From the IMG/VR virus record IMGVR_UViG_3300021091_000059, positions 1-64,000 of that record: a stretch of DNA of 64,000 bases; one strand, given 5' to 3'. The DNA is from a virus. Shown one piece after another: positions 5,140 through 47,512 of the stretch. The notes under the pieces were generated by a model that saw only the letters and a program-made list of their open reading frames with translations, made no database searches and was not told where the DNA came from. The first letter of the stretch is position 1; every line of letters starts with the position of its first letter. The position numbers and the translations under genes were made by a program.

Positions 5140-6786
5140 ATGGCAGTCAAACTCTTTGGATTTACCCTAGGTCGAAAAGATGTTGTTCAACCGCAATTAC
5201 CTGAACAACCTTCTTTTGCACTCCCAACACAAGCTATGGATGATGGTGCAGTCACCATCACATCTGCAGCTCACTATGGAACTTATGTAGATTTAGAAGG
5301 TTCTGTTCGTAATGAAATTGAACTAATAACACGCTATCGTGAGATGGCAAACCATCCAGAATTAGAAATGGCGATTGATGATATTGTCAATGAAGCCATC
5401 ACCCATGATGAAACAGGTAAAGTAGCTAATATTGTTTTAGATAAACTAACTCAACCTGAAACCATTAAAAAGAAAATACTCGAAGAATACAATAATATTC
5501 AGAAGATGCTTAACTTTAGCAATCTGGCTGATGACCTTTTTAAGCGTTGGTACATTGACGGTAGAATTAATTTTCATGTAGTTGTTGATGAAAAATCGCC
5601 AAAAGAAGGTATTAAAGAATTAAGATACATCGATCCACGCAAGATTCGTAAAGTGCGTGAGATTAAAAAAGAGCGTGATCCAAAAACTGGCGCTCAAATT
5701 ATTTCCTCTATTGCTGAGTATTATGTTTATAATGACAAAGGCACTACATCACAAACTTATACAAGTAATGTAAATGCTGGTTTAAGAATTGCGCCAGAAT
5801 CTATTATTAATGTAAATTCAGGTTTGATGGATGCAAAAAACACTTTTGTCATTTCATATTTACATAAAGCTATCAAACCACTCAATCAGTTAAGAATGAT
5901 TGAAGATGCTATCGTTATTTACCGTTTATCAAGAGCGCCTGAAAGACGAATATTTTATATTGATGTAGGTAATTTACCAAAAGGTAAAGCAGAACAATAT
6001 CTTCGTGATGTTATGGTCAAATATCGTAACAAAATGGTATATGATGCTCAAACAGGTGAATTAAGAGATGACCGCAAACACATGTCAATGCTTGAAGATT
6101 TTTGGTTACCTCGCCGTGAAGGCGGTAAAGGTACTGAAATTACCACACTTCCAGCTGGTCAAAACCTTGGTGAATTAGAAGATGTAAAATATTTTCGTCA
6201 GAAGTTATTACAGTCATTAAATGTGCCTATTTCACGATTAGACTCGCAACAAGGTGGTATGATTGGTGTAGGTAGAGTGGCTGAAGTAACAAGAGATGAA
6301 GTTAAATTTGCTAAATTTGTTCAAAGATTAAGAAATAAGTTTTCTCAAATCTTCGATCAAGCTCTTCGTGTTCAATTGGTACTTAAAGGCATTTGCACAC
6401 AAGAAGAATGGGAAGATTTCAAAGAAGCCATTTACTATGACTTCTTAAAAGATAATAATTTTACCGAAATGCGTGATGCTGAATTACTCCGTGAAAGAGT
6501 AAATCTACTTCAAACGGTTGACCCATATATTGGTCGTTATTATTCATCTAAATGGGTTCGTAAAAATATTCTTCAAATGAATGAAGAAGACATTGAACAA
6601 ATGGAAAACGAAATTAAACAAGAAGAAAATGACGGAACTGGTGGTCCAATAATGCAAGGTGGTGAACAAGTATCAGCTGACCAATATCCTCCAGAAGACA
6701 ACACGGTTGAACGTGGTGCCGAAGATTCAAAAACACCTCAACTTGATGCTGATGTTGAAAAGTATAGTAACATAAATAGAGCTTAA
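5140..6786 (+). CDS. 20: Portal vertex protein (gp20-like)
   Basis: A 548-residue portal protein, close in length to T4 gp20 (524 aa). Recognisable family segments include LEMAIDDIVNEAI near the N-terminus, the central clip/stem region with YIDPRKIRKVREIKKE, and LPAGQNLGELEDVKYF plus VPISRLDS near the crown. Twelve copies form the channel for DNA entry, initiate prohead assembly and dock terminase. The C-terminal tail is acidic and disordered. It follows a terminator and begins the prohead gene block. Confidence 0.96.
   Translation: MAVKLFGFTLGRKDVVQPQLPEQPSFALPTQAMDDGAVTITSAAHYGTYVDLEGSVRNEIELITRYREMANHPELEMAIDDIVNEAITHDETGKVANIVLDKLTQPETIKKKILEEYNNIQKMLNFSNLADDLFKRWYIDGRINFHVVVDEKSPKEGIKELRYIDPRKIRKVREIKKERDPKTGAQIISSIAEYYVYNDKGTTSQTYTSNVNAGLRIAPESIINVNSGLMDAKNTFVISYLHKAIKPLNQLRMIEDAIVIYRLSRAPERRIFYIDVGNLPKGKAEQYLRDVMVKYRNKMVYDAQTGELRDDRKHMSMLEDFWLPRREGGKGTEITTLPAGQNLGELEDVKYFRQKLLQSLNVPISRLDSQQGGMIGVGRVAEVTRDEVKFAKFVQRLRNKFSQIFDQALRVQLVLKGICTQEEWEDFKEAIYYDFLKDNNFTEMRDAELLRERVNLLQTVDPYIGRYYSSKWVRKNILQMNEEDIEQMENEIKQEENDGTGGPIMQGGEQVSADQYPPEDNTVERGAEDSKTPQLDADVEKYSNINRA
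6771..6778 (+). promoter_or_regulatory. Late promoter element CATAAATA before gp67-like gene
   Basis: CATAAATA lies inside the last codons of the portal gene, 24 nt before the next ATG. The same 8-mer recurs at 11921, 41064 and 48718. Confidence 0.55.
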
Positions 6787-6802
6787 CATAACGGAGAAAA
6801 TT

Positions 6803-7129
6803 ATGGAAACAACACAATTTATTGATCAACTTGTAGCCGGTAAATCTGCTCAAGCTAAAGAAACACTTACAGATATTTTATCTGCTAAAGCCTTTAATGC
6901 ACTTGAAAATCGTAAAATTGAAATTGCTAAATCATCTTTTGGTGGTATAGAACAAGATCAGAATGAAGATCAAGATATTGAAGTTTTAGATGCAAATGAA
7001 GTCAATGGTGTTCAAATGAGTGATATTGAAGTGCAAGATACTGCCGATACACCAATGAAAGATGAGCTTATAACACAAGAAGAATTTGATGCTTCAGGAT
7101 TAATTCCTGCTAAAGTAATGGCAAAATGA
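6803..7129 (+). CDS. 67: Prohead core protein (gp67-like)
   Basis: A 108-residue acidic protein. The N-terminal segment (FIDQLVAGKSAQAKETLTDI, then a run ending ENRKIEIAKSSFG) is the conserved feature of T4-like prohead core proteins placed after the portal. The rest is acidic and low complexity, as expected of a core component degraded by the gp21 protease. T4 gp67 is similarly small and acidic. A good ribosome site (CGGAGA) precedes it, and the stop overlaps the next ATG (ATGA). Assigned by context and the N-terminal motif. Confidence 0.72.
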   Translation: METTQFIDQLVAGKSAQAKETLTDILSAKAFNALENRKIEIAKSSFGGIEQDQNEDQDIEVLDANEVNGVQMSDIEVQDTADTPMKDELITQEEFDASGLIPAKVMAK

Positions 7130-7821
7130 AATCTTTAGAACAGTTTAGACTTTTAATAGAAGAGGAGAAACAAGATTACTCCAAATTTGATGCGTTGGTA
7201 CGAGCTGGATTAGCAAACAGGTCTCAAATACAAAGAATTCATCGTGTTTTAAATAAAATGGGTGAAGAAAAACCAACTTTTAACCCAACTGACCGAGCAT
7301 TGATGCAAATGCTTTTTTTAAAAATGGCTGATTTAATTACAAGTAAGCAACTATTTCAAAAAACAAGGCAAACAGTTCGTGAGGAATATGAAGAAATTAA
7401 TGAGGCATTAGATTCAAGTGATCCACCTTTTGTATTAGTATTAAAGAGAAAAGCCATTCGTTTATATCCAAATGGTCAAAAAATTGCTCTTTATTTTAAC
7501 AACAAAATTAACAAATATTTTAGTGTTCCTTATGGTCCTGGTGTTGACTCTAATATACAGGCGGAAAATTTAAAAAACGGTATAAATACTATTAATGAAA
7601 ACAACATAACACAGTTGCAAAAGATTAAAGATAATCACCAACTTGGTGCGATTAAACATAATGATGGAACTTCAAGTAAAGTTGATGTGCAAACTGCTCA
7701 TGCAATTCTTAATGTTCATAAAAAATTGAATGATGAGAATAAAAAGAAGTTTGAAGACATGATTAATAAATCACGTCAACATTTACAAAAAGCGGCAGAA
7801 TTTTCACAAAAGAGAATGTAG
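7126..7821 (+). CDS. Prohead-region protein of unknown function
   Basis: A 231-residue, lysine-rich protein between the gp67-like and gp21 genes. It starts MKSLEQFRLLIEEE, similar to the capsid-targeting-type tags seen on several late proteins in this window. A helical block follows (about residues 20-90, with LVRAGLANRSQIQRIHRVL), then a short beta-like part (about 100-130) and a basic helical C-terminus. It overlaps its neighbours by 4 nt and 3 nt, consistent with coordinated expression in the prohead operon. A core or scaffold-associated role (in the position of T4 gp68) is plausible. I do not recognise a characterised family. Confidence 0.6.
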   Translation: MKSLEQFRLLIEEEKQDYSKFDALVRAGLANRSQIQRIHRVLNKMGEEKPTFNPTDRALMQMLFLKMADLITSKQLFQKTRQTVREEYEEINEALDSSDPPFVLVLKRKAIRLYPNGQKIALYFNNKINKYFSVPYGPGVDSNIQAENLKNGINTINENNITQLQKIKDNHQLGAIKHNDGTSSKVDVQTAHAILNVHKKLNDENKKKFEDMINKSRQHLQKAAEFSQKRM

Positions 7822-8270
7822 TGTTAAATTTTGTTGATTTAATATTACAAAATAAATTAGACGAAGCAAAAAAAATATTATTTGATCGTCTTGATGAAAT
7901 GATCGCAGATCGTATAAAAAGTGCTAAACGATATGTAGCTGAAGATAGATTTGAAAAAGTAGAAAACCTTGAAGAAGTTGCTAGACGTAATGTTAATATT
8001 ATTAGAATGGGAAGAATCAATAAGATTCGCCGTAGAATAAGAAGAAACGCTAAAGGACGAATTATTGTTCAAAAAAACAGAAGACGTTCAGGTATAAAAG
8101 GTTATCGTATTTCTGGTAATACAGTTAGACGAATACCAGCAACAACAAGACTTAAAAAAGCCCGTTTATTAAAACGGTCATGGAAAACAACTAGAAGAGC
8201 TAAACTTCGTAGAACATTATTAAAACGAAAAATGTCTATGCGAAGAAGAGCCGGATTAGGACTAAAATAA
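7821..8270 (+). CDS. Strongly basic prohead-region protein
   Basis: A 149-residue protein starting at GTG, whose G is the last base of the upstream TAG stop. The first 55 residues are ordinary helices. From about residue 55 onward it becomes a dense Arg/Lys sequence with repeated RRR and RxxR motifs (for example RINKIRRRIRRNAKGR), ending RRRAGLGLK. Such composition suggests nucleic-acid binding or charge neutralisation of the acidic core (gp67, gp22) inside the prohead. It occupies the place of gp68 in T4-like genomes. Function is inference from charge and position. Confidence 0.6.
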   Translation: MLNFVDLILQNKLDEAKKILFDRLDEMIADRIKSAKRYVAEDRFEKVENLEEVARRNVNIIRMGRINKIRRRIRRNAKGRIIVQKNRRRSGIKGYRISGNTVRRIPATTRLKKARLLKRSWKTTRRAKLRRTLLKRKMSMRRRAGLGLK

Positions 8271-8271
8271 A

Positions 8272-8622
8272 ATGCCATTTGAATTAATTAACTCTATAAG
8301 AAGTCCTTCAATTATTCGTATTGAAGGAACAGGTACAACTACAGTTGCTTTAGCTAACTTATCAGCGAGTGCTAATGAAACTGTAACATCCGCAAGCATT
8401 AAAAGAATAAATTGGTCAACAAACGGCAATATTCAAATTGTCAGAAGTTCTGTTCCAATTGTTTCTTTACACAATACGGGCGAAATGCGTCTTGATGAGT
8501 ATGGTTATTCAATTGCAAATAATAATACCTCATCTATTGTAATTACAATTAATACCGGCGGTACAGTAGTATTAGAAGTATCTAAAGAAGCAACTTATGC
8601 AACAGCATTAACAGGATTCTAA
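8272..8622 (+). CDS. Small beta-rich virion-type protein
   Basis: A 116-residue protein rich in Ser, Thr, Asn, Ile and Val, with alternating hydrophobic strands (for example SIVITINTGGTVVLEVS) and almost no charged clusters. It lacks a signal peptide or membrane segment. It lies one base after the basic protein and one base before the gp21 protease, inside the prohead operon. Composition suggests a beta-sandwich structural protein, perhaps a capsid decoration or accessory protein. I do not recognise a named family. Confidence 0.55.
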   Translation: MPFELINSIRSPSIIRIEGTGTTTVALANLSASANETVTSASIKRINWSTNGNIQIVRSSVPIVSLHNTGEMRLDEYGYSIANNNTSSIVITINTGGTVVLEVSKEATYATALTGF

Positions 8623-8623
8623 C

Positions 8624-9274
8624 ATGAAACTTATTAGAGAAACCGTAGAAAATGTAAAGTATGTTACAGAGGCTTCAGAAAACGGTAAAAAGCATCTTTT
8701 CATTGAAGGTACATTTCTTGTTGGCGATACAGTCAATCGTAACAATCGCATGTATAAAATGGATACTCTTCGAAAAGAAGTCAACCGTTACAATGAAGAA
8801 TATATTAAAACGAATCGTGCATTAGGTGAGTTAGGTCATCCTGACACACCAACAATCAATCTTGAAAGGGTATCCCATAAAATTGTATCACTATCTGAAG
8901 ATGGTAATACATTCTATGGTAAGGCTTTAATCCTTGAAACACCATATGGTCAAATTGTCAAAAACTTTATTGATAACGATGTAAGTATTGGTGTATCTTC
9001 AAGAGCTCTTGGTTCAGTAGTTACAACTAAAGACGGTTATAGCCTAGTCCAAGATGACCTCAAATTAGCAACAGCGGCAGACATTGTTGCGGATCCATCA
9101 GCACCGGGTGCGTTTGTAAATGGCATCATGGAAAATAAAGAATGGATGTTTATTGAAGGTAAATTTGTAGAAACTGACTTTGACCTTGCAAAAACACAAA
9201 TTCGTAAGGCATCTTCAAAAGAAATTGAAGAGGTGGCCTTAAAATTATTTGAAAATTACCTCAGAAAACTTTAA
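8624..9274 (+). CDS. 21: Prohead maturation protease (gp21-like)
   Basis: A 216-residue serine protease of the T4 gp21 type (herpesvirus-protease-like fold). NRNNRMY near residue 40, H72 in ELGHP, and S125/S126 in GVSSRALGS mark the expected catalytic region. The protease digests the scaffold and trims capsid and internal proteins, typically after (L/I)xE. A VTE|A sequence at residues 14-17 could be a self-processing site. It is followed by a perfect TATAAATA late element and then scaffold and capsid genes. Confidence 0.95.
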   Translation: MKLIRETVENVKYVTEASENGKKHLFIEGTFLVGDTVNRNNRMYKMDTLRKEVNRYNEEYIKTNRALGELGHPDTPTINLERVSHKIVSLSEDGNTFYGKALILETPYGQIVKNFIDNDVSIGVSSRALGSVVTTKDGYSLVQDDLKLATAADIVADPSAPGAFVNGIMENKEWMFIEGKFVETDFDLAKTQIRKASSKEIEEVALKLFENYLRKL

Positions 9275-10506: not shown

Positions 10507-11829
10507 ATGTATTTGTCCGAATCATTACAGAAAAAGTGGGAAGGTGTTCTTGAACACCCCGACTTACCTGCAATTAAAGACCCGTATCGTAAGGCTGTGA
10601 CTGCTGTCATTCTTGAGAATCAAGCTCAAGAAATGCAAAAAGCAAGTCAAATGCTTACTGAAGCTACACCAGCTAACGCAGCAGGTACAGGCGGTTTTGG
10701 TGCTGGAGCAGCTGCCGGTGGTCCAGTTGCCGGTTTTGATCCAATCTTAATCAGTTTAGTTCGCCGTTCATTACCAAACTTAATCGCATACGATGTATGC
10801 GGTGTTCAACCAATGACAGGCCCAACTGGTTTAATCTTTGCTATGCGTTCTACATTTAGCACATCTAATGTGACCGCAGGCGCAACAGAAGCATTTTACA
10901 ACGAAGCTAATACAGGTTTTGGTGGTGTTTCTGCCGCACAAACAACTCTTGCTGTTGGTACTGCTGCTGCTAACACATTCGTTGGTAATGCTGCTCCATC
11001 ACTTGGTTTAACAACAGCTTCTGCTGAAGATTTAACATTTGCAGAAATGGCATTCTCAATTGAAAAAGTTACTGTTACTGCTAGAACAAGAGCATTAAAA
11101 GCAGAATACTCAATTGAACTTGCACAAGACCTTAAAGCAGTTCATGGTTTAGATGCAGAAACAGAATTAGCAAACATCTTGTCTGCTGAAATTCTTGCTG
11201 AAATTAACCGTGAAGTTGTTAGAACAATCTATGGTACTGCTGTAACAGGTTGCCAAGTTGGTACAACTACTGCTGGTAAATTTGACCTCGACACCGATTC
11301 AAACGGTCGTTGGATGGTTGAAAAAGTTAAAGGTTTAGCTTTCCAAATTGAAAGAGAAGCCAATACTATCGCTAAATTAACTCGTAGAGGCAAAGGTAAT
11401 ATTTTAATTTGCTCAAGCGATGTTGCTTCAGCGTTGGCGATGTCTGGTATTCTTGATTACAATTCAGCTTTACAAGCAAATGTAGCCTTGACTGTTGATG
11501 ATACAGGTAACACATATGCCGGTACTCTCTTCGGTCGTATCAAAGTGTATATTGATCCGTTTGCTCCAACATCAGCAACTCAAGAATTTGCAGTTGTTGG
11601 TTACAAAGGTTCAAATGCTTATGATGCAGGTTTATTCTATTGCCCATATGTTCCTTTACAAATGGTTCGTGCAGTTGACACATCGAATTTCCAACCAAAA
11701 ATTGGTTTCAAAACTCGTTACGGTCTAGTTGCAAACCCATTTGCACAAGGTACAACACAAGGCCTTGGTGCATTGACTGTGTTGGTTAACAACTACTATC
11801 GTGCATTTAAAGTTGCAAACTTGATGTAA
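10507..11829 (+). CDS. 23: Major capsid protein (gp23-like)
   Basis: A 440-residue HK97-fold major capsid protein. The N-terminus has a removable leader ending LTE|A at residues 50-53, matching the gp21 consensus; a Gly/Ala-rich hinge follows (GTGGFGAGAAAGG). The core includes PILISLVRRSLPNLIAYDVC, QPMTGPTGLIFAMRS and the KAEYSIELAQDLKAVHGLDA segment typical of gp23 (T4: 521 aa). It assembles the icosahedral/prolate shell. A strong ribosome site (AGGAGAT) precedes it, and a terminator follows. Confidence 0.97.
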   Translation: MYLSESLQKKWEGVLEHPDLPAIKDPYRKAVTAVILENQAQEMQKASQMLTEATPANAAGTGGFGAGAAAGGPVAGFDPILISLVRRSLPNLIAYDVCGVQPMTGPTGLIFAMRSTFSTSNVTAGATEAFYNEANTGFGGVSAAQTTLAVGTAAANTFVGNAAPSLGLTTASAEDLTFAEMAFSIEKVTVTARTRALKAEYSIELAQDLKAVHGLDAETELANILSAEILAEINREVVRTIYGTAVTGCQVGTTTAGKFDLDTDSNGRWMVEKVKGLAFQIEREANTIAKLTRRGKGNILICSSDVASALAMSGILDYNSALQANVALTVDDTGNTYAGTLFGRIKVYIDPFAPTSATQEFAVVGYKGSNAYDAGLFYCPYVPLQMVRAVDTSNFQPKIGFKTRYGLVANPFAQGTTQGLGALTVLVNNYYRAFKVANLM

Positions 11830-11887: not shown

Positions 11888-11918
11888 AGAGGGCTCTGTA
11901 AGGAGTCCTCTTTTTTTT
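11888..11918 (+). terminator. Rho-independent terminator after major capsid gene
   Basis: A 9-bp stem AGAGGGCTC and GAGTCCTCT with one G-T pair, 6-nt loop and a run of eight T. A second AT-rich hairpin (AGTCTT and AAGACT ends) occurs just before it at about 11835-11866. Confidence 0.9.
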
Positions 11919-31623: not shown

Positions 31624-32100
31624 ATGGATTTAAAACAAAAACTAAGCGAAAATTTTTCATTAAGCGAATTGACAAAAAGTGAAACAGCTATTCGAAATAA
31701 TTTAGATAACACTCCAACACAAGAAGTTGTAAATAATTTAAAAACATTATGTGAAAATATTTTGCAACCAGTCCGTGAAGGATATGGTGTTGCAGTTAAA
31801 GTAAATTCTGGTTATAGAGCACCAGAAGTTAATGCAGCTGTAGGTGGTTCAAGAACATCTGACCATTGTAAAGGTCAGGCAGCAGACATTGAGATTCCAG
31901 GTGTACCTAATGCTGAATTAGCAGAATGGATTAAAGACAATTTAGATTTCACACAATTGATTCTTGAATTCTATACACCAGGTATTCCAGATTCTGGTTG
32001 GGTTCATGTATCTTATGATGCTAATAACCTCAAGAAACAAGCATTAACAGCGGTAAAAGAAAACGGCAAAACAGTTTATAAGCCAGGACTAATTGCCTAA
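31624..32100 (+). CDS. M15-family peptidase (endolysin candidate)
   Basis: A 158-residue peptidase M15-type protein. Zinc ligands are predicted as H81 and D88 (SDHCKGQAADIE) and H128 (WVHVS), with SGYR at 62-65 as the substrate-binding motif. Such enzymes cleave D-Ala or other peptide links in peptidoglycan. No signal peptide is seen, so release would need a holin, or the protein could be virion-borne. The holin and spanin candidates lie 23-25 kb downstream. Confidence 0.88.
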   Translation: MDLKQKLSENFSLSELTKSETAIRNNLDNTPTQEVVNNLKTLCENILQPVREGYGVAVKVNSGYRAPEVNAAVGGSRTSDHCKGQAADIEIPGVPNAELAEWIKDNLDFTQLILEFYTPGIPDSGWVHVSYDANNLKKQALTAVKENGKTVYKPGLIA

Positions 32101-32160
32101 TTTAAACAGATAAACAGTAGTAGTAATTAATGATTTTTAGTAATGACTTTTAGCTGAAAG

Positions 32161-32288
32161 TGTTATAAAATATAAATGTTAAGTAATAATATTTAACAAT
32201 AAAACTCAAGTTAGACCTTTGCAATTATATTGTATCTCTAACGATTTGGATTATAAATTAAAAACTTATCAATCTAAGGAGAAATAAT
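32161..32288 (+). promoter_or_regulatory. Promoter region and structured leader of pqqA
   Basis: TGTTATAAA at 32161-32169 is an extended -10 (TGnTATAAA). It is followed by TATAAATG (32171-32178), one base from the late element. The leader of about 110 nt contains GTTAGA (32210-32215) complementary to TCTAAC (32237-32242) and a smaller GTTAA/TTAAC hairpin. No protein is apparent in 32101-32288. The ribosome site AAGGAG is at 32276-32281. Confidence 0.45.
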
Positions 32289-32360
32289 ATGTGGACAACA
32301 CCATCAGCTCAAGAAATGCGTTTTGGCTTTGAAGTGACCATGTATGTAATGAATAAATAA
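32289..32360 (+). CDS. pqqA: PqqA, PQQ precursor peptide
   Basis: A 23-codon gene (MWTTPSAQEM... then RFGFEVTMYVMNK). It carries the diagnostic PqqA core GFEVTMY, including the Glu and Tyr (E15 and Y19, spaced ExxxY) that the radical-SAM enzyme PqqE cross-links to build pyrroloquinoline quinone. N-terminal MWT and the overall length of 23 residues agree with proteobacterial PqqA. A strong AAGGAG site lies 7 nt before the ATG and a TTCG-loop terminator follows, so it is a separate unit. No other pqq gene is in the window, so the host would supply PqqB-F. Confidence 0.9.
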   Translation: MWTTPSAQEMRFGFEVTMYVMNK

Positions 32361-32380: not shown

Positions 32381-32408
32381 AAAACCTCACTTCGGTGAGG
32401 TTTTTTTT
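32381..32408 (+). terminator. Rho-independent terminator after pqqA
   Basis: Perfect 10-bp stem AAAACCTCAC and GTGAGGTTTT with TTCG tetraloop and a run of eight T. Confidence 0.95.
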
Positions 32409-32420
32409 ATTTGGAGTTTT

Positions 32421-32858
32421 ATGATAAATAGAATCACAGGATTCACCTGTTCAACTTTTGATTTGCTTCATGCGGGTCATATTCTTATGCTTCGTGAAGC
32501 TAAATCTCAATGTGATTATTTAATTATTGGATTACAAACCAATCCATCCATTGATAGACCACAAACCAAAAATAAACCAGTTCAATCTATTGTTGAAAGA
32601 TATGTTCAACTATCAGCTGTAAAATATGTTGATGAAATTATTGTGTATGAAACTGAAAAAGACCTTGAAGATTTGTTAATGTTTTTACCATTAAATAAAA
32701 GATTCATTGGTGAAGAATATCAAGGCAAAGATTTCACCGGAAAACAAATTTGTGTTGATCGTAACATAGATATAATATACAATTCAAGGACACATCGTTT
32801 TAGTTCTACTGAGCTTCGTCAAAGAACCTATCAACATGAATTAGAGAGAAAAACATAA
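32421..32858 (+). CDS. Cytidylyltransferase-like nucleotidyltransferase (TagD/RfaE type)
   Basis: A 145-residue nucleotidyltransferase. The catalytic HxGH is H17-AG-H20 (DLLHAGH), and the C-terminal RFSSTELRQR matches the SSTxLR motif that holds the nucleotide phosphates. Length fits glycerol-3-phosphate cytidylyltransferase. It probably makes CDP-activated precursors for surface polymers; similar genes occur in cyanophages. One-base overlap with the next gene. Confidence 0.88.
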   Translation: MINRITGFTCSTFDLLHAGHILMLREAKSQCDYLIIGLQTNPSIDRPQTKNKPVQSIVERYVQLSAVKYVDEIIVYETEKDLEDLLMFLPLNKRFIGEEYQGKDFTGKQICVDRNIDIIYNSRTHRFSSTELRQRTYQHELERKT

Positions 32859-34051: not shown

Positions 34052-36592
34052 ATGTCAAATTATTATACAAGTGCCATAACTTTTGGTAATCAAATCCTTT
34101 ATCGTGGAATATCCAACGGTCGTCAAGTCAAAAGTAAAGTAGCTTATAAACCCACGCTATATTTGCCATCTAAAAAGGTAACAGAATGGAAAACACTTCA
34201 TGGTGAATATGTTGAACCAATGAGGTTCGAAAATATTCGTGAAGCTCGTGACTTCGTGAAGCGATATGCAGAAGTAGATAACTTTAAGATATTTGGTAAT
34301 ACCATGTATCAATATGCACTTATCGCTGAAAACCATCCAGAAGAAATTATTGATTGGAAGTATTCAGACCTATGTATTGCCAATCTTGACATCGAAGTTG
34401 GATCTGAAAATGGATTTCCAGAACCAAAAACTGCAAGCGAACCTATTACAGCTATTACCGTTAAATTCTCTGATGATCGCATGTATTATACATTTGGTTG
34501 CGGTGTCTATCAAAAACATCGTGATGATGTTCAATACATTTTCTGTAAAGATGAATATACTCTTATTAAAGAGTTTCTAATTGTTTGGCAACAAAAATCT
34601 CCACATGCAATAACCGGTTGGAACATTTATGGTTTTGATATTCCATATTTGGTTAATCGTATCAGTAGAATATCTGGTGAAGATGAAGCTAAAAAGTTAT
34701 CGCCATGGGGTGTTATCAATGATCGTGAAGATATATTATATAACCGAAAATTTCAAATTTATGAAATTCTAGGCTGTGTAACATTAGACTATATGCGTTT
34801 ATTCCGTAAGTTTTCACCGAATCGATCACAAGAATCATATAGACTTGATCATATTGCACAGGTTGAAGGTGTTGGCCAAAAAATTTCATATAATGAATAT
34901 GATGGTCTTCATGATTTATATAAAAAGAATTACCAAAAGTTCATTGAATATAATATACGAGATGTTGAACTTGTTGAAAAATTAAATGCAAAAGGTCGCC
35001 TTATTGAAATGGCACTTACGATTGCTTATGATGCTAAAGTAAATTATGATGATATCTTTGCTCAAGTTCGTATGTGGGATACAATAACACATAATTATCT
35101 TCATCAAAAAAAGATTGTGGTACCACCGAAATTTGTATCTAAAAAAAATCAAGCTTATGAAGGTGCATATGTTAAAGAACCACAAATTGGTTTATTTAAA
35201 TGGGTAGCATCGTTTGATTTAAATTCACTTTATCCACACTTAATGATGCAATACAATATTGCACCAGATACTATTGTTGAACCAAAAGATTATACACCAA
35301 GAATGAGAGATATACTTTCACAAGGTATTACAGTTGAAAAGTTATTGCATCAAAAGATTGATTTAAGTGGTTTAGAGGGCGTAACTCTTACACCCAATGG
35401 TCAATTCTTTAGAACAAATAAACAAGGTTTCTTACCAGAGATTTTAGAAAAGATGTATAATGATCGAACAAAGTATAAGAATTCCATGTTAGAGGCTAAA
35501 AAGAAATATGAAACAGCAACCACAACTGAAGCTAAAAAAGAATACGGTGCATTAATATCTCGTTATGCCAATCTACAACTTACTAAAAAAGAATGTTTGA
35601 ATTCTGCTTATGGTGCCTTAGGTTCTGAATACTTCCGATTCTTTGATATACGCCAAGCTGAGGGCATTACTATGGCGGGTCAATTAAGCATTCAATGGGT
35701 TGAAAGAAAGCTTAATGAATACCTCAATCGTTTATTAAAAACAGAAAATAAAGATTTTGTAATCGCAATTGATACTGATTCAGTTTATCTTAACCTTGAA
35801 CCATTGGTTAACTCTGTAATGAAAGATACAAGTGATACTAACAAAGTTATTAATTTTCTAGACAAAGTATGTGAAGATAAATTTCAACCATTTATCGATA
35901 AATCATATCAAGAGTTGGCAGATTATATCCATGCTTATGATCAAAAGATGAAAATGAAACGTGAAAATCTAGCAGACAAAGCCATTTGGACTGCCAAGAA
36001 AAGATACATTATGAATGTGTATAATTCTGAAGGTGTTCAATATGCTGAACCTCAAATTAAGATTACAGGTCTTGAAGCTATTAAATCATCTACACCAACA
36101 GCATGTCGTGATAAGATTAAAGAAGCCTTATACATAATTATGACAAGTGATGAAAATGAATTACACACAATGATTGAAAACTTTCGTGATGAATTTAGAA
36201 AAATGCCTGTAGAAGATATTGCTTTTCCAAGATCAATGAATGGCCTAAATGAATACAAAGATTCTAAACACATCTGGTCTAAAGGCACACCAATTCATGT
36301 TCGTGGTGCTTTGGTCTATAATCATATGCTTGACCAATTAAATATATCTAAACAATATCAAAAGATTCAAGATGGCGAAAAAATTAAATTTATCTATCTT
36401 CGTGAGCCAAATATATTTAAGACTGATATCATTTCTTTTACAAATAAAATGCCTAATGAATTTCGTGTTGATGAATTCATTGATTATGAAACACAATTTC
36501 AAAAGTCTTTCATTGATCCATTACAAATCATTTTAGATTGTATTGGCTGGAAAACTGAGAAAGCTAATTCGTTGGAGAGTTTCTTTGTCTGA
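34052..36592 (+). CDS. 43: DNA polymerase (gp43-like, family B)
   Basis: An 846-residue replicative polymerase (T4: 898 aa). Proofreading exonuclease motifs are NLDIEVG (ExoI) and GWNIYGFDIPYL (ExoII). Polymerase motifs are FDLNSLYPHL (A), KKECLNSAYGALGSEY (B) and AIDTDSVYL (C). The C-terminal tail (about the last 15 residues, LESFFV) would contact the sliding clamp. No intron or split is seen. Overlaps the next gene by 8 nt. Confidence 0.98.
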   Translation: MSNYYTSAITFGNQILYRGISNGRQVKSKVAYKPTLYLPSKKVTEWKTLHGEYVEPMRFENIREARDFVKRYAEVDNFKIFGNTMYQYALIAENHPEEIIDWKYSDLCIANLDIEVGSENGFPEPKTASEPITAITVKFSDDRMYYTFGCGVYQKHRDDVQYIFCKDEYTLIKEFLIVWQQKSPHAITGWNIYGFDIPYLVNRISRISGEDEAKKLSPWGVINDREDILYNRKFQIYEILGCVTLDYMRLFRKFSPNRSQESYRLDHIAQVEGVGQKISYNEYDGLHDLYKKNYQKFIEYNIRDVELVEKLNAKGRLIEMALTIAYDAKVNYDDIFAQVRMWDTITHNYLHQKKIVVPPKFVSKKNQAYEGAYVKEPQIGLFKWVASFDLNSLYPHLMMQYNIAPDTIVEPKDYTPRMRDILSQGITVEKLLHQKIDLSGLEGVTLTPNGQFFRTNKQGFLPEILEKMYNDRTKYKNSMLEAKKKYETATTTEAKKEYGALISRYANLQLTKKECLNSAYGALGSEYFRFFDIRQAEGITMAGQLSIQWVERKLNEYLNRLLKTENKDFVIAIDTDSVYLNLEPLVNSVMKDTSDTNKVINFLDKVCEDKFQPFIDKSYQELADYIHAYDQKMKMKRENLADKAIWTAKKRYIMNVYNSEGVQYAEPQIKITGLEAIKSSTPTACRDKIKEALYIIMTSDENELHTMIENFRDEFRKMPVEDIAFPRSMNGLNEYKDSKHIWSKGTPIHVRGALVYNHMLDQLNISKQYQKIQDGEKIKFIYLREPNIFKTDIISFTNKMPNEFRVDEFIDYETQFQKSFIDPLQIILDCIGWKTEKANSLESFFV

Positions 36593-46393: not shown

Positions 46394-47512
46394 ATGGATG
46401 TTATTAATGTAAGTAAAATTATCAAACCAAAAAAAGAATATGTGATTGATAATCAAATTAGAGGCCGTAGTTATTCAAGTAATCACGCAAAGTTACTTAA
46501 ACACATGGATCGCCTGATTGATTTACAACAAGGTAAACGACCTAGACCGGTCATGTTTCATATGTCACCTTGTAATCCATGTAATCTAACGTGTTCATTC
46601 TGTTGTTTTGCTAATCGTGCCATGACAGAAATGCTTACGGTTGAACAAATGAAATCAGCCATTGACCAATTTACAGCCCTAGGTGTTACTGGTATGGAAT
46701 TTACAGGCGGTGGTGAACCGACACTACATCCAAAATTAGATGAAATTATTGAATATGGTTATAACAAAGGCCTAAAAATGGGTATTTGTACCAACGGTTC
46801 AAAACTTAAAAAGATTAAAAATTGGCATATGATGTCATGGGTTCGCCTAGGCATGTATTCATGGGACGAAAAGAAACCATACCCATATCATCTTGAAGTG
46901 TTTGATGGGTTAGACATTGAAATTTCAGCCGCATATGTTTGGGATGGCGCCACAGACACCTCAACGAACCCAAATATTACGGGTGAATGGACAGATAACC
47001 ATGCTAAAAAACTTGCAACCAATGAATATAAAGAAGAAAACTTTATGAAGATGTTAGCTTGGGTTGAAGAAAAGAAAATACCAACACGGATTGCTTTTAA
47101 TGCAATTAAATCCACAGACATTGTTGCAAAAGATATTGAATCAATTAGAGTGTTAATTGGTAAACATGAAGAAAAACATGGTAAATTACAATACGCTTTC
47201 TTATCAGATTTTAACTTCAAAGGTACAAGAAGAAACAATCATTGTTATATGCACGGAGTAAAACCTTGCGTGTTCACCGATGGTAATGTTTATGTTTGTC
47301 CTTCAGCCGAATTAGCACCAGAAAATAATTATCAAGTCAATGATGAATTTAAGTTATGTGATATTGCTGGTATTACAGACTTTTATAATTCACAAGTTGG
47401 TGGGCCTGATGTTTTTAGAAGATATCATGACTGTTCATTCTGTAAATATGCTTATCAGAATGAATTGATTGATGATGTATTAATGCCAACTAAACATAAT
47501 GAATTTGCATAG
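46394..47512 (+). CDS. Radical SAM enzyme with SPASM-like C-terminus
   Basis: A 372-residue radical SAM protein. The cluster-binding motif is C63-NLT-C67-SF-C70 (CNLTCSFC), followed by MEFTGGGEPTLHP. Near the C-terminus, KPCVFTDGNVYVCPSAE and YHDCSFCKYA supply further Cys pairs typical of SPASM/twitch auxiliary clusters. It is probably a modifying enzyme in the glycan/methyltransferase cassette. It does not carry PqqE-type motifs, so I do not link it to pqqA. Enzyme class is secure, substrate unknown. Confidence 0.85.
   Translation: MDVINVSKIIKPKKEYVIDNQIRGRSYSSNHAKLLKHMDRLIDLQQGKRPRPVMFHMSPCNPCNLTCSFCCFANRAMTEMLTVEQMKSAIDQFTALGVTGMEFTGGGEPTLHPKLDEIIEYGYNKGLKMGICTNGSKLKKIKNWHMMSWVRLGMYSWDEKKPYPYHLEVFDGLDIEISAAYVWDGATDTSTNPNITGEWTDNHAKKLATNEYKEENFMKMLAWVEEKKIPTRIAFNAIKSTDIVAKDIESIRVLIGKHEEKHGKLQYAFLSDFNFKGTRRNNHCYMHGVKPCVFTDGNVYVCPSAELAPENNYQVNDEFKLCDIAGITDFYNSQVGGPDVFRRYHDCSFCKYAYQNELIDDVLMPTKHNEFA

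Follow-up and report, generated by a model that had tools for sequence, protein, structure and literature searches.

The window analysed here is the 64,000-nucleotide stretch formed by positions 1 to 64,000 of the 70,088-bp virus record IMGVR_UViG_3300021091_000059, and pqqA with its signals and neighbours, like the capsid, terminase, polymerase, and radical SAM genes, lies on the + strand. At 32289-32360, 69 coding bases and a stop codon encode a 23-residue peptide with the translation MWTTPSAQEMRFGFEVTMYVMNK. The peptide matches Pfam PF08042 with 40.3 bits (E=3e-10, curated cut-off 21.1) and the NCBIfam equivalog TIGR02107 with 37.2 bits (E=1.8e-9, cut-off 20), which bears out the first-pass annotation of this gene as pqqA, encoding the PQQ precursor peptide. 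It shares with the PqqA family its length, the MWTxP start, and the GFEVTMY core already recognised in that annotation: EVTMY occupies residues 15-19, placing Glu15 and Tyr19 in the E-x-x-x-Y spacing of the pair that is cross-linked by PqqE (PMC10906245). The setting, however, is unlike that of the family, as this copy lies in a phage without PqqE and possesses its own promoter, leader RNA, and terminator. PHROGs holds no family for the peptide and a PDB sequence search with it gave no match. The gene is the only PF08042 match in the record, and no PqqE over the cut-off was found in the whole record, in keeping with the earlier observation that no other pqq gene is visible. A radical SAM protein encoded at 46394-47512 is generic and not PqqE (TIGR02109 27.1 bits vs a cut-off of 381.35); comparable weak PqqE similarities (27 bits in the window protein) are seen in G020 and G050. 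Radical SAM genes of VP_139, the companion population of the Lake Baikal phage VP_266 discussed below, have been linked to PQQ synthesis (PMC7678222), a link that was checked here for the window protein only and rejected for it (27 vs 381 bits).

The phage itself is T4-like, with a gp23-type major capsid protein (10507-11829, PF07068), portal, sheath, terminase (large subunit at 1109-2743), UvsX, and a T4-type DNA polymerase (34052-36592, PHROG 262) that served as the query for finding relatives. A DruA (Druantia defence) domain match (PF14236, 42 bits) is also present in this T4-like phage at 39936-41054. The upstream neighbour of pqqA is an endolysin gene (31624-32100, PHROG 894) and the downstream neighbour encodes a nucleotidyltransferase-family protein (32421-32858, PHROG 7878, TIGR00125 domain). 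The 188-nt gap ahead of pqqA is the longest in its neighbourhood. It holds a sigma70-like promoter at 32143-32171 (ATGACT, 17 nt, TAAAAT), which is conserved in relatives and which a consensus scan alone finds at chance level, and a short predicted 5' hairpin directly after it (32178-32197), in which relatives differ in sequence and keep the pairing as judged by eye. The ribosome-binding site AAGGAG (32276-32281), 7 nt before the ATG, is invariant in relatives. An intrinsic terminator (32381-32412), with AAAACCTCACTTCGGTGAGGTTTT and a T-run at 32381-32404, is indicated by folding and by the alignment of relatives, whose stems carry the compensatory changes CTCAC/GTGAG, CCCAC/GTGGG, and CTCGC/GCGAG. 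Both of these last signals had been named in the first-pass annotation and both hold; the structured leader described below was absent from it. The T4 late promoter motif TATAAATA was considered as a driver of pqqA and rejected, being neither enriched nor located upstream of the gene.

Upstream of the promoter, the element TTAATGATTTTTAG (32127-32140) is a near-match to the pattern TMATGATTTTM, with a T at a position that the strict pattern reserves for C or A. The pattern occurs within 220 nt upstream of 108 of 185 phage and 62 of 117 host pqqA genes, mostly 60-180 nt ahead, and in control stretches 800 nt further up in 5/158 phage and 7/101 host cases, an enrichment that is descriptive only, these being the sequences that yielded the pattern. 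It is also found upstream of pqqA in the cultured phages P19250A, Melnitz, and MEP301. The element may be a putative binding site for a host regulator, and its palindromic form, present at 27 of the 117 host copies, suggests a candidate regulator site.

Between promoter and ribosome site lies a leader RNA element of stacked stems, P1 (outer), P2, and P3 (inner), at 32196-32256. Covariance model R1 matches the window only there (60.4 bits, E=1.2e-12), this leader being one of the 24 seeds of the model. In the 24-sequence alignment the letters CUCAA, ACYU, CUC, and GAYYUG around P2 are near-invariant. First counts for the P2 helix were inflated, as the seeds had been picked by requiring P2 pairing; in 16 distinct strand pairs selected by their flanks alone, with pairing not required, P2 is 98.75% paired (shuffled partners: mean 73.6%, maximum 86%). 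P1 and P3, which were not selected for, each have 70.8% of cells paired vs 35-52% when the whole structure is slid, and 7 of 8 pairs in P1 and P3 together have changed on both sides. The stems thus show the covariation by which a cis-regulatory RNA is recognised.

The leader motif precedes pqqA in phages of the window's group and of other groups and also in OM43-type hosts. A scan of 121 whole Methylophilaceae genomes with R1, unconditioned on pqqA, returned matches in 14 small genomes (1.2-1.4 Mb), one per genome and with E between about 1e-10 and 1e-13; each of the 14 is followed, after 41-46 nt, by a tandem pqqA pair. In these OM43-type genomes (L429-L442) a single leader RNA precedes both copies, of which the first usually ends in ..MYVCNK/R and the second in ..MYVMNK. 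Among viral loci totalling 1.8 Mb, mostly chosen for their pqqA, every match with E<0.01 is upstream of pqqA. No leader was found in the cultured phage isolates, nor in 274 genomes sampled across the class, which include no positive control and so are weak evidence. Rfam yielded no family above chance; a freshwater-2 match of the window leader (15.5 bits, E=3.4) was discarded, as none of ten other leader loci matched. The element is therefore apparently undescribed. A separate pqqA-bearing contig of the same phage group carries a ROSE-type RNA thermometer (L333:1445-1510, RF02523, 54 bits).

The distribution of pqqA among phages was followed in several ways. A tblastn search of 50,697 phage records with the peptide matched P19250A, Venkman EXVC282S, MEP301, MEP401, MEP402, and four Melnitz isolates, i.e. 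9 of 9 cultured Methylophilaceae phage genomes found in the collection, which belong to several unrelated types. This count is without MEP431-434 and Venkman EXVC038S, taxa that are named but whose sequences were not found in the collection, and HIM624-A is present as a 23-kb fragment only. A Manatee Spring podovirus contig was also matched. The remaining matches were two weak ones to records of Acinetobacter phage MD-2021a, rejected as phage pqqA since the record examined (CAKLQF020000010.1, L375), deposited as phage, looks like a bacterial contig with ppk and a pqqABCDE-type operon. In all phage copies read, the frame is complete and preceded by a ribosome site of the AGGA type. The earlier remark that such a gene is easily missed by gene callers agrees with the cultured-phage records examined, in which pqqA is unannotated or covered by a hypothetical gene on the wrong strand, and the publications that describe MEP301, MEP401/402, Venkman, and Melnitz (PMC8024684, PMC10580990, PMC8163748, PMC9004378) are silent on phage PqqA. 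In a 6-kb stretch of MEP301, similarity to the DNA of P19250A, MEP401, MEP402, or the Manatee Spring phage is confined to about 75-90 bp at pqqA, so the gene has passed from one to another of these otherwise unrelated phages or was acquired by them independently.

Environmental relatives were sought with degenerate DNA patterns, the query having only 23 residues. A strict pattern for GFEVTMYVMNK (about 53 bits by our own count, for which zero chance matches are expected) is found in at least 120 IMG/VR contigs. At least 120 contigs likewise match a pattern that covers the N-terminal half and not the core, and Glu and Tyr are present in 120/120 of the matches listed, as they are in 149 unique copies. 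Loss of this pair in related phages had been named beforehand as a refutation of the annotation; the pair is present in every related copy read. When three shared genes are required, the pqqA neighbourhoods fall into ten groups of at least two loci plus singletons. Close relatives found through the polymerase have pqqA at the same place as the window, and the gene is present in all those with polymerase identity of at least 90% and enough flank. No pqqA lies near the polymerase gene in relatives at 71% identity and in most below, so that T4-like phages as a whole do not depend on the gene. Among the pqqA-bearing contigs, IMGVR_UViG_3300025120_009955 (L030; also G010 and L420) carries a XoxF-like methanol dehydrogenase (624 aa; L420: 3990-5864), a formate dehydrogenase alpha subunit (946 aa; 5944-8784), and pqqA (at 11888) within 9 kb, as well as a protein with weak CsgA/CsgB curli similarity.

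Phage pqqA is under purifying selection, with pN/pS of 0.22 for codons 2-12 and 0.08 for codons 14-23, each computed on gene halves not used to select the copies. As a host-like metabolic gene under selection in a phage genome, it is a candidate auxiliary metabolic gene. The host is indicated by the C-terminal signature FGFEVTMYVMNK, which marks Methylophilaceae: in a pattern search against 84,980 bacterial and archaeal species genomes, the informatively named records among the matches listed are all from this family (Methylotenera, Methylophilus, Methylopumilus, OM43). Seven phage copies equal a host copy at the DNA level. All 121 Methylophilaceae genomes contain pqqA, in 1-12 copies (median 4), in line with the 3-12 copies, usually with one pqqBCDE set, published for the family (PMC4109929). 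PqqE over the cut-off occurs in 117 of the 121 host genomes and in none of 46 phage records. The PQQ-using, methylotrophic host that the first-pass annotation had hinted at is thus in agreement with the signature and with the gene content of Methylophilaceae. Sequence comparison supports the window gene as a genuine pqqA in a T4-like phage of a Methylophilaceae host.

The window copy has no intron, but in eleven related contigs (L252/L378, L267, L268/L382, L269, L270/L379, L276/L385, L380, L383, L384, L386, L387) pqqA is split by an insert of 231-278 nt (eight copies measured). The gene is interrupted after GG-N-T and resumes with TT-GAA, i.e. at the codon just before the reactive Glu. The inserts match the group I intron model RF00028, with 70.0 bits in L252 (gathering score 50) and 65.3 bits in L267 (targeted search), and they show the U at the exon end, the G at the intron end, and the intact spliced frame of group I introns. 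Unspliced, the frame meets a stop shortly after Phe-Gly; predicted splicing restores an intact PqqA in 9/9 copies with a complete second exon, the L386 product having Ile in place of Val after Glu. A pattern match in L381 was set aside as chance. Unlike usual group I introns, these sit within a gene of 69 coding bases, just before the catalytic Glu codon. They occur in two sublineages, whose polymerases are 91% and 67% identical to that of the window and which both also include intronless members, so gain or loss has happened repeatedly. Given how short the gene is, the intron makes a striking example of a mobile element that inserts at the best-conserved positions of an auxiliary gene.

Based on these observations, it is likely that phage pqqA supplies a consumable PQQ precursor to the PqqB-E enzymes of the host under host-type control. 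Transcription during infection would start at the gene's own promoter and give a small monocistronic RNA. Host PqqD would bind the peptide and host PqqE would cross-link Glu15 and Tyr19, after which PqqB, PqqC, and proteases of the host would trim it to PQQ. In this way PQQ-dependent methanol dehydrogenase, the energy source of the host, could be kept supplied during the shutdown of host transcription. As one peptide is consumed per PQQ and the enzymes are reusable, a phage would need only the consumable substrate, a stoichiometric reasoning that also takes in the hosts, which themselves multiply only pqqA. Disruption of pqqA lowers PQQ in M. extorquens, as cited in PMC6520949. Family membership, the conserved Glu and Tyr, low pN/pS, and the host signature all count for precursor supply, as do the promoter, terminator, and leader of the gene, the intron-split copies that regain PqqA on predicted splicing, its presence in all nine cultured methylophage genomes, and the isolated pqqA segment in MEP301. 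The XoxF-like methanol dehydrogenase and formate dehydrogenase on the L030/G010 contig would likewise fit a boost of methanol oxidation. Against it count the several pqqA copies that hosts already own, given that a precursor shortage is only presumed, and the lack of pqqA near the polymerase in the more distant relatives.

Control of this supply could lie in the leader. The 3' strand of P1 could also pair with bases adjoining the ribosome site, in stems of 7.5 bp on average as against 5.5 (maximum 6.25) after shuffling, and in some predicted folds the ribosome site itself is paired with the conserved CUC. This pairing pattern is what a translation-controlling switch would look like, and the leader may represent a candidate new riboswitch class. 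To our knowledge, no riboswitch is known for the PQQ cofactor pathway. Like riboswitch-type leaders in Rfam, the element has covarying stems around conserved loop letters, lies upstream of a biosynthesis gene, and shows possible competition near the ribosome site; unlike them, it lacks an Rfam match above chance. Perhaps, and we put this forward tentatively, such a riboswitch senses PQQ or another methanol-oxidation signal ahead of pqqA in marine OM43-type hosts and their phages, so that a common signal would tune both precursor supplies, with the group I intron of some alleles as a second layer of control comparable to that of cyanophage psbA. With the host-type leader and the shared upstream element, phage pqqA would then answer the same signal as host pqqA. 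Just as tentatively, the stems could serve not to sense a ligand but to stabilise or process the transcript. An mRNA can gain stability from a structured leader, and the separate hairpin directly after the promoter likewise varies in sequence and retains its pairing. Stabilisation by the leader has been discussed for psbA (PMC5931967). On the other hand, the unpaired CUCAA, ACYU, and GAYYUG loops are more conserved than the stems, and the alternative partner of the P1 3' strand adjoins the ribosome site, both of which are typical of sensors.

Phages often interfere with their hosts through small peptides, and the product of pqqA might act as a decoy or brake that occupies host PqqD or PqqE, or floods the pathway, and thereby disturbs PQQ synthesis. 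This is improbable: an inhibitor should have dispensed with Glu15 or Tyr19, and the complete reactive core is conserved like that of the host, seven phage copies match a host copy letter for letter in DNA, and the L030/G010 contig brings its own methanol and formate dehydrogenases, which fits boosting rather than braking. The identity of these seven copies in nucleotides does indicate frequent transfer, and pqqA might be thought of as passenger host DNA acquired by recombination and of no use to the phage; the low pN/pS already disfavours this, and the presence of the gene in nine cultured methylophages of several types, the conserved promoter, leader, and terminator, and the retention of both exons in frame in split copies make it very unlikely. 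A chance reading frame or host contamination of the assembly, for which the shortness of a 23-codon frame and the precedent of the Acinetobacter phage MD-2021a record might speak, has a negligible probability given the HMM E-values, the endolysin and T4 replication genes that flank pqqA in the window and its relatives, and the presence of the gene in cultured, completely sequenced phages.

The proposed supply of PQQ precursor by phages of methylotrophs has a forerunner in the literature. One phage PqqA, from Lake Baikal, was reported in 2020 and given the role suggested here (VP_266, PMC7678222), and viral pqqA also figures among the auxiliary metabolic genes of a sediment survey of 2026 (PMC13188868). 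VP_266 resembles the window phage in being T4-like, in its predicted Methylophilaceae host, and in PqqA as the proposed auxiliary metabolic gene; it differs in being a single contig reported without cultured phages, intron, or leader RNA. New against the literature searched are the intron, the leader RNA, the common upstream element, and the finding that pqqA occurs in every cultured methylophage examined. Every cultured methylophage checked and many environmental phages carry pqqA, which makes it a marker for viruses of methanol-oxidising bacteria; the covarying leader that hosts and phages have in common is a candidate for a new regulatory RNA of cofactor synthesis. Phage-host pairs already exist, namely Melnitz or Venkman on H5P1 and MEP401/402 on FZCC0133.

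The closest parallel to the proposed supply of precursor is psbA of cyanophages, which in S-PM2d has a group I intron and a long leader (PMC5931967). Both genes would provide a consumable component for host energy metabolism, and the intron situation in phage pqqA is that of psbA, with a group I intron in some alleles. A long upstream region with a sigma70 motif and a hairpin is likewise common to the two. The genes themselves are unrelated, and psbA encodes a short-lived protein that is damaged and replaced, whereas PqqA is a peptide consumed as a substrate. PQQ supply may be a pressure point in the infection of methylotrophs, as photosystem repair is for cyanophages.
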